Shown here: piece after piece, positions 31,814-33,976 of the stretch | How the letters are laid out: every line of letters starts with the position of its first letter | Position numbering within the stretch: position 1 is the first letter of the stretch | Assembly: GCF_000422245.1 (NCBI RefSeq) | Contig: NZ_ATHI01000029.1 | Location: 29,363-93,362 of the forward strand | Length of the DNA: 64,000 nt | Origin: Alkalidesulfovibrio alkalitolerans DSM 16529 | GTDB lineage: Bacteria > Desulfobacterota > Desulfovibrionia > Desulfovibrionales > Desulfovibrionaceae | Reading direction: 5' to 3' | The notes under the pieces: model-generated | What the model saw: the letters and a program-made list of their open reading frames with translations, nothing else | Databases searched by the model: none | What the model was told of the DNA's origin: nothing | Translations under genes and position numbers: made by a program

Positions 31814-32113
31814 TCAGGAACAGCAGGCGTCCGGGGCCACGACCCGGCGCAGAAGCGGCACGCGCGAGAGCCAGCCGTAGAGGATGGCCTGGGCGCAGCC
31901 CACGCCCGGCCGGACCGTGATGGCCCCGGACGGACAGTTCAAGGCGCAGGCCCCGCACTCCATGCAGCCGCCGTGGTCCACGAGCTCGGCCTTGTCTCCA
32001 CGCAGCGCGAAGACCTCGTGCGGGCAGACCGTGGGGCACGCGCCGCAGCCGATGCACTTCTCCCGGTCGTAGTCCAGGGTGACGATGTTCTCCAGGTGCC
32101 TGAAATCCCTCAT
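31814..32113 (-). CDS. hgcB: HgcB, ferredoxin of the mercury-methylation system
   Basis: 99 residues. Two 4Fe-4S motifs are present (CIGCGACPTVCP at 20-31 and CMECGACALNCP at 50-61). An additional Cys lies in GVGCAQ (about 73) and a vicinal Cys pair ends the protein (DACCS). The extra Cys and terminal pair are the hallmarks of HgcB that separate it from ordinary 2[4Fe-4S] ferredoxins; both are thought to handle Hg(II) or methylmercury. HgcB reduces the corrinoid of HgcA and may deliver mercury to it. Its ATG shares a base with the hgcA stop codon (TGATG) and has GGAGG upstream, so the pair is translationally coupled. Confidence 0.95.
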   Translation of the reverse strand: MRDFRHLENIVTLDYDREKCIGCGACPTVCPHEVFALRGDKAELVDHGGCMECGACALNCPSGAITVRPGVGCAQAILYGWLSRVPLLRRVVAPDACCS

Positions 32114-33156
32114 CACGAACCTCCAGCAGCCGGGCCGCCGAACCAGGACCAGCCCAGCCACAACATGACGGCCAGAAACGCCAGCAGCCCCTGCGCGGGC
32201 ATGTAGCGCCGCATCTCGCGATCCACGCCGGAGAGCGAGGTGAACGGCGTGGAGCCGGTGTAGTGCATGGCGAACCAGGAAGAGAACGCGGCGCAGATCG
32301 ACAGCGCGGCCAGCCCCTCGGGTACGGAGCGCGCCAGAAGCACGGCCAGCGGCAGCCCAACGGCCGCGCCCGCGAGCAGCCCCTTGGCCGCAAAGGCGCG
32401 GCCGGGCAACAGACGCAAGAGCGCGGGCGTGACGAACGTGCCCCCGACGAACCCCGCCAGGGTCATGGCGAAGGCCCCAAGGCCCACCGCAAGCAGGCCC
32501 ATGACCGAAAAACCGCCCTTCCAGGCCGGCCCGAGCGCGGCCAGCACAAGGCAGAGCGCCAGGGTCCAGGCCATGAACTTGCGCGCGGCGTGCATCTCCA
32601 CCAGGGCCACGGTCAGCCTCTCGCCGAGCGGAAACTCGGCCCGCCGCATAGACGGCTCGGCCGTGAACCCGGCCCCCAGAAAGGCAGGCAGATCGCGCGA
32701 GCGCACCGGGCCGAACACGGCGCCGAAACCGCACAGCCCACGCAGTTTGCGGGCGGCCACGCCGGGCGCGGCAAGCTGGGGCAAGACGAGCCTGCGGTGC
32801 TCCACGATCCGTTCGAGCCCCGTGGCGCGGACCCGCGCGGCCACCTCTGCGGTGGAGAAGCTGCGCTTGCCCGCCGCGCACCAGACGTTGATCCCGTAGG
32901 TCTCGATGACCAGAAGCCAGCAACTGTGCCCGGCCAGGTCACGGCGAAGGATATCGAAGGTCAGCTTGTAGTTGCAGGTCACGATGACCGGGCTTTGTGC
33001 GTCCGGCTCACCCAGGGCGTAGAGCCCCGGCGCGATGCGGTAGCTGTCGCGGCCGATGCCCATGCGCACGGCCAGCGCGCCCAGGCGGTCCGACGCGGCC
33101 CAGTCAAACCGCACCCTCGGCACGAGCCCGGCGGGCGTTTGCAGCCAGCCACTCAC
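32113..33156 (-). CDS. hgcA: HgcA, mercury-methylating corrinoid membrane protein (conserved core)
   Basis: From the GTG at 33156 the product is 347 residues. The corrinoid-binding domain is related to the CO dehydrogenase/acetyl-CoA synthase corrinoid protein and holds the diagnostic NVWCAAGK; its Cys (residue 93 in this numbering, the same number as the characterised Cys of strain ND132) is the lower axial ligand that allows methyl-carbanion transfer to Hg(II). Five membrane helices follow (from about 195). The GTG has no good ribosome-binding site, and the family-like PG..WDFVSGW begins upstream of it. The frame stays open from 33516 except for two TGA codons (separate entry), so a longer selenoprotein form is likely. 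It is coupled to hgcB downstream and linked to arsR upstream. Confidence 0.93.
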   Translation of the reverse strand: MSGWLQTPAGLVPRVRFDWAASDRLGALAVRMGIGRDSYRIAPGLYALGEPDAQSPVIVTCNYKLTFDILRRDLAGHSCWLLVIETYGINVWCAAGKRSFSTAEVAARVRATGLERIVEHRRLVLPQLAAPGVAARKLRGLCGFGAVFGPVRSRDLPAFLGAGFTAEPSMRRAEFPLGERLTVALVEMHAARKFMAWTLALCLVLAALGPAWKGGFSVMGLLAVGLGAFAMTLAGFVGGTFVTPALLRLLPGRAFAAKGLLAGAAVGLPLAVLLARSVPEGLAALSICAAFSSWFAMHYTGSTPFTSLSGVDREMRRYMPAQGLLAFLAVMLWLGWSWFGGPAAGGS

Positions 33157-33188
33157 GAAATCCCAGGACCTGAGCCCCGGCCGCTCTC

Positions 33189-33207
33189 CTGCCGCCTCCG
33201 GCGGCAG
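33189..33207 (-). promoter_or_regulatory. SECIS-like hairpin after the second in-frame TGA of hgcA
   Basis: A perfect 8-bp stem (CTGCCGCC / GGCGGCAG) has the 3-nt loop GGA. The loop begins 23 nt after the TGA at 33223-33225. Bacterial SECIS models expect a stem just 3' of UGA with the apical loop about 16-37 nt away and a G among the first two loop bases; all are met. Confidence 0.6.
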
Positions 33208-33411
33208 TTCGTTCCTGGGGCCTCAGCACGGCGCGTCGTCGGCAGGCGCACCCTGCGCGATCACATCCCCTGCCCCGCACGGCGACCCGTTCGTTCCGCA
33301 TGAAATATTGGTCGTAAAGGCAGCAAAGTCCTTGGCAGTTAAAGCGGCCGGGGAAACCAGCGTGCGGTCGCCCGGCGCATCCGGCGAGCATCCGCATGCG
33401 CCGCTAGTCGT

Positions 33412-33428
33412 CTCCGCGCCCGGCGGAG
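33412..33428 (-). promoter_or_regulatory. SECIS-like hairpin after the first in-frame TGA of hgcA
   Basis: A 6-bp stem (CTCCGC / GCGGAG) has the 5-nt loop CGGGC. The loop begins 16 nt after the TGA at 33439-33441, at the short end of the usual bacterial SECIS range, with G as the second loop base. It is weaker than the hairpin of the second TGA. Confidence 0.45.
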
Positions 33429-33512
33429 GAGGTGGAGTTCAGGTGAATCGTCCGGGACCGCAGGCCCCTGCTGATTCCGGGCCGGGTTGCGCGGCAAAGG
33501 GATCGAGTGGTT

Positions 33513-33830
33513 TCATGGCTTCTCCGTGGCGTCAAGCCCGGCCGCACAGGCGGCGAAGCGGGCCAGACGCTCCCTGTCGAGACAGTAGCAGATGCGCGGC
33601 CCCTCCACCTCGCCGAGCAGCAGCCCGGCCTCCTTGAGCACCTTCAGGTGCTGGCTGACCGTGGACTGGGCGAGCGGCATGATCTCCACGATACGGCCGC
33701 AGACGCAACGCCCCTCGGCTGCCAGATGGCGCACTATGGCCACCCGCGCCGGATGCCCCAGAGCCTTGGCCATCGCGGCGAATTCGTCGTCGGACAGGGA
33801 GAGGGAATTCGTTTCGGCATCCATCGCCAT
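33513..33830 (-). CDS. arsR: ArsR-family metalloregulator of the hgc operon
   Basis: 105 residues. The winged helix-turn-helix shows ALGHPARVAIVRHL, then RCVCGRIVEIM with the CxC pair at the place of the As(III)-binding Cys pair in ArsR, and the recognition helix QSTVSQHLKVLKEAGLL. A third Cys pair follows in ICYC. Such proteins release their operator on binding As(III), Sb(III) or other thiophilic ions. arsR-like genes next to hgcAB are known in other Desulfovibrionaceae. Its stop codon overlaps the upstream hgcA ATG. The true start may be an internal ATG (33824 or 33773), because a promoter-like sequence sits only 4 bp before 33830. Confidence 0.9.
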   Translation of the reverse strand: MAMDAETNSLSLSDDEFAAMAKALGHPARVAIVRHLAAEGRCVCGRIVEIMPLAQSTVSQHLKVLKEAGLLLGEVEGPRICYCLDRERLARFAACAAGLDATEKP

Positions 33831-33924: not shown

Positions 33925-33976
33925 AAAAAAATCCGGGCCTGGACACGCCATCATGCGCCCAGGCCCGGATTTTTTT
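33925..33976. terminator. Strong bidirectional terminator after the suf genes
   Basis: An 18-bp perfect stem (seven A, then TCCGGGCCTGG, with its complement) and a 16-nt loop give T-runs on both strands. It ends minus-strand transcription from sufCB and isolates the arsR-hgcAB unit, whose promoter lies just beyond. Confidence 0.9.

Follow-up and report, generated by a model that had tools for sequence, protein, structure and literature searches.

Our analysis leads us to regard the HgcA encoded in the window (the whole stretch of 64,000 nucleotides from Alkalidesulfovibrio alkalitolerans DSM 16529 analysed here) as a two-selenocysteine variant of a known selenoprotein. Translation likely begins at ATG 33516, and selenocysteine is very likely inserted at codon 98 and probably also at codon 26. 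We infer this start and the insertion from an open frame, a shared start, a conserved codon 98 place, a UGA26 that is shared with a congener, hairpins and the presence of the sel genes. The sequence-only reading had proposed selenocysteine insertion at both codons. For UGA98 this proposal is strongly supported by the conserved place, the hairpin and the sel set, and for UGA26, which is congener-shared and has a weak hairpin here, it is probable.

The genes are arranged on the minus strand in the order arsR, hgcA, hgcB, with neighbouring ends overlapping. An arsR/smtB-type regulator gene (33513..33830, minus strand; NF033788 match) overlaps hgcA by ATGA. The product of hgcA (32113..33516, minus strand) has 467 residues, provided that selenocysteine is inserted at both UGAs, and matches NF040863 with 422 bits (cut-off 275) over residues 132-458. 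As the match begins at residue 132, neither UGA falls inside the part modelled by NF040863. The adjoining hgcB (31814..32113, minus strand) encodes a Cys form (GVGC; ends ACCS) that matches NF040864 with 126.4 bits (cut-off 99). The corrinoid-ligand cysteine of HgcA is C213 in N-V-W-C-A-A-G-K, invariant across 40 aligned HgcA sequences. Re-reading of the frame bore out the continuity described earlier: it begins with ATG 33516, ends with the stop at 32113 and is open apart from TGA codons 26 (33439-33441) and 98 (33223-33225) and the final TGA. The interval between the sufB and arsR genes contains a likely terminator, a perfect inverted repeat of 18 nt that ends in T runs (33925-33976), and, immediately before arsR, a sigma-70-like site (33862-33834).

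UGA98 (33223..33225, minus strand) very likely encodes selenocysteine. The codon is indeed preceded by Cys, as had been pointed out, in the context P-C-UGA-G-P. Comparison with homologues, suggested earlier as a way to look for Cys in place of TGA, places codon 98 at a conserved UGA-or-Cys position: 57 of the 76 hgcA loci of the order have a UGA 20-23 codons upstream of the F-V-S-G-W core, and 14 of the other 19 have a Cys pair in the same stretch (judged by eye). Outside the order, CU or CC before the core was found in many of the 106 hgcA loci of a phylum sample of 395 genomes. A SECIS-like hairpin (33189..33207, minus strand; 8 bp, loop GGA, -14.6 kcal/mol) starts 23 nt past UGA98, where the local fold has a z of -3.3, and 99 of 104 of its pair cells are kept in 13 relatives. 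Hairpins of -9 kcal/mol or lower follow 50 of the 57 core-proximal UGAs of the order, compared with 62 of 1608 UGAs in the window, a background that includes UGA26 and UGA98 themselves. An Rfam search of 33100-33560 gave no match up to E 5. Selenocysteine at UGA98 is strongly supported by the conserved place, which holds a UGA or a Cys pair, together with the hairpin and a full sel set.

Components of this set, which the initial reading had proposed to look for, were all recovered from the genome: selA, selB, selD and a tRNA-Sec (88.8 bits, anticodon TCA). In-frame TGAs also occur in selD and in the FdhA gene of the same genome. At these codons, which were picked among many TGAs by their flanking residues and which we take to be Sec codons, the same hairpin measure gives -9.1 (FdhA) and -2.7 (SelD), compared with -9.0 at UGA26. 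Across the order, selB exceeds the cut-off in 71 of 76 hgcA genomes and therefore cannot separate UGA-type from Cys-type hgcA. It falls below the cut-off in G016, G024, G138, G203 and G323, among which G024 (67% complete), G138 (96%) and G323 (82%) carry UGA-type hgcA. Genome G138, with its UGA-type locus L108, counts mildly against the UGA reading because it is 96% complete and has no selB match over the cut-off.

The overlap of ATG 33516 with the arsR stop (ATGA) and the upstream GGAG were confirmed, the duplex energy being -6.6. The exact ATGA overlap is found in 22 of 40 arsR-coupled hgcA genes of the order (those whose start lies between -14 and +15 nt relative to the arsR stop), and MKPL or a close form is the N-terminus in many of these relatives; in relatives, the tail ahead of the corrinoid domain is therefore coding. 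A short HgcA starting at GTG 33156 (33154..33156, minus strand), the start expected in an ordinary gene model, had been put forward as a serious alternative; neither UGA would then be read, and the upstream frame would be a relic or a leader. Counted from this GTG the corrinoid Cys is residue 93 (residue 213 from ATG 33516), and the claimed agreement with Pseudodesulfovibrio mercurii ND132 holds, as the Cys is called C93 in the available part of PMC11588087. GTG is also found at the same place in 35 of 52 UGA-type loci (71 loci were examined for this count, with five further loci outside it). Both congeners, G001 and G002, however, read GTC there, and for this reason we judge the codon not to be the start and the short form very unlikely. 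Furthermore, in 8 of the 52 UGA-type loci start codons are absent throughout the region that runs from the UGA up to the tenth codon of the core. PCUGP and its hairpin are conserved, as is the MKPL start, and GTG 33156 falls on the first predicted strand (residues 121-127). In the window, the stretch from TGA 33223 to GTG 33156 is free of ATG, GTG and TTG, just as reported before.

GTG is thus common as the codon of the second core residue (35/52 UGA-type loci), and in loci of genus g5 the corrinoid Cys then becomes residue 93. Models of the gene with a start downstream of the UGA would therefore share this number and lose the tail. ND132 HgcA has the same corrinoid core with HgcB beside it, and its numbering in PMC11588087, as far as available, is consistent, by the spacing found here, with translation beginning where GTG 33156 lies and thus leaving out the tail. 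The hgcA of ND132 itself presumably carries the tail.

UGA26 (33439..33441, minus strand) is found in the context R-F-T-UGA-T-P-P and probably encodes selenocysteine. The same UGA is present in the congener G001. Between MKPLDPFAA and ADDAPCUGP the tails of the window and G001 are hard to align, save for a 40-base island around UGA26 (33411..33450, minus strand; 32/40 identical), which is the best local match between the two tails and was equalled by none of 2000 codon shuffles. The island ends in a hairpin with stems in the same columns in both genomes. In G001 it has 9 bp, a loop GGU and -14.0; in the window it is a weak SECIS-like hairpin 16 nt past the UGA (33412..33428, minus strand; 6 bp, loop CGGGC, -9.0 kcal/mol). 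Hairpins as good as the latter follow 1.4% (strict) to 3.7% (wide) of 1606 UGAs in the window and 14 of 400 GC-matched UGAs. Counting against the hairpin, the minimum-energy fold of the 54-nt region of UGA26 is another structure (z +0.92). Selenocysteine at this codon is graded as probable because the hairpin is weak here and is not the best local fold. Thr and not Cys precedes UGA26, which is unusual. Among the 40 arsR-coupled hgcA genes, 35 have one UGA, three have none and two (the window and G001) have two; the absence of TAA and TAG from these 40 tails is by construction, as frames were followed only to the last such stop. The second congener, G002, has a shorter tail without UGA26, and Cys pairs occur near the N-terminus in other genera, where the tail is not alignable residue by residue with UGA26. 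Another relative, the 95%-identical P0003, is represented by its protein sequence only.

The main rival reading accepts selenocysteine at UGA98 only. UGA26 would end a 25-residue leader peptide, and synthesis of HgcA would begin at GTG 33264 or through re-initiation; the protein would then contain a single selenocysteine, like other HgcA. GTG 33264 (33262..33264, minus strand) is the one possible start between the two TGAs and has a fair ribosome-site energy of -7.7. In G001, an internal ATG likewise lies between the two UGAs (-6.3). Such a scenario would also be in line with the weak UGA26 hairpin in the window genome and with the single selenocysteine given for HgcA in the available part of the published record. 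These internal starts, however, occupy different places in the window and in G001, whereas ATG 33516 is the start common to single-UGA relatives, and UGA26 with its hairpin forms the centre of the conserved island. We therefore consider the leader scenario unlikely. UGA26 could in principle also stem from faulty sequencing, or from a nonsense mutation if the gene is decaying, given the single assembly of the species and the imperfect hairpin. This explanation is hardly credible, as G001, an independent genome of another species, has the same UGA in conserved surroundings, and the remainder of hgcA, and hgcB, are intact. Translation from ATG 33516 through both UGAs is the reading we prefer.

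Additional N-terminal UGAs are seen in other genera. Two loci of genus g22, L088 and L092, carry a UGA in an N-terminal CUAPP in addition to PCUGP, and L039 of that genus has PCUGP only. The hairpins after the N-terminal UGAs of L088 and L092 keep 7 of 8 pairs, three of them via two-sided changes, while the residues differ. In genus g10, six of seven loci (L027, L033, L087, L089, L090, L091) have an N-terminal CUPP and no core-proximal UGA. From the CUAPP of g22 and the CUPP of g10 it follows that an N-terminal Cys/Sec place recurs. The seventh g10 locus, L048, has Cys pairs only, and the HgcA tails of L088, L092 and L039 are very long and Cys-rich, with two, two and one in-frame UGAs, respectively. 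Inspection by eye of the 106 phylum hgcA loci gave no clear second UGA (one, L165, reads N). An extra UGA in L012 was not counted as a second Sec (hairpin -5.8, start ATG without a ribosome site), nor were upstream in-frame UGAs in L006, L007, L035 and L041 (hairpins none to -9.1, start unclear). The latter UGAs are located about 93-95 codons upstream of the core, and L006 and L041 have UDC(A/S)S.AQ after the UGA in common.

HgcA as such is no new selenoprotein. A 2026 review (PMC13188914), in its available part, lists it as a CU selenoprotein with one Sec, citing Haft and Gwadz 2023, and lists HgcB also. The window HgcA shares with this CU-type HgcA (NF040863, PMC13188914) the family, the Cys-Sec pair near the N-terminus and the presumed SECIS-dependent insertion. 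It differs from the form listed there in a UGA at codon 26, preceded by Thr, and in a longer tail. UGA26 is the new part relative to the one-selenocysteine "CU" HgcA already in print. Other prokaryotic selenoproteins with 2-3 Sec, as listed in the same part of PMC13188914, also have more than one Sec per chain, but their families and functions differ. No two-Sec HgcA was found in the literature searched; Haft and Gwadz 2023, PMC4393432 and PMC12013261 may mention one. With two Sec, the window HgcA would represent a new variant among HgcA selenoproteins, one that offers a natural test of the role of the arm.

In the predicted structure, residues 1-109 have a pLDDT <50 and are probably disordered, and the first strand comprises residues 121-127. 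HgcA would accordingly present an arm of about 110 residues, predicted to be disordered, with Cys and Sec ahead of the corrinoid domain. Its likeliest role would be that of a flexible arm whose thiols and selenols take up Hg(II) and may hand it over to the methylated cobalt next to Cys213, jointly with the Cys pair at the HgcB end. The HgcB pair is discussed in the available part of a 2024 PNAS paper. Since the UGAs, if read, need selenocysteine, synthesis of HgcA would depend on selenium; full-length protein would be made only at sufficient selenium, subject to two UGA checkpoints instead of a single one. We put forward, as a tentative proposal that may well prove wrong, that HgcA of this genus has two selenocysteines on a disordered arm delivering Hg(II) to methyl-cobalamin, that selenium gates methylmercury at two codons, and that the gene models of many methylators, starting after the UGA, lack the arm. 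HgcA participates in the formation of methylmercury, a global pollutant. If the native HgcA of many methylators has a Cys-Sec arm, residue numbers, constructs and assays may miss a mercury-handling part of the protein, and selenium supply would be a direct control on whether HgcA is made.

For the order survey 348 genomes were searched, and HgcA exceeded the cut-off in 76. The 76 order loci that were read derive from 75 of these genomes plus G092, whose split hit scores under the cut-off. G141 and G148, both partial, and G316, a remnant, were excluded from the order loci. Contig ends truncate L032 and L094. The apparent hgcA remnant of G316 consists of two short pieces of the gene and contains an in-frame stop (G316:C3:30253-30600).
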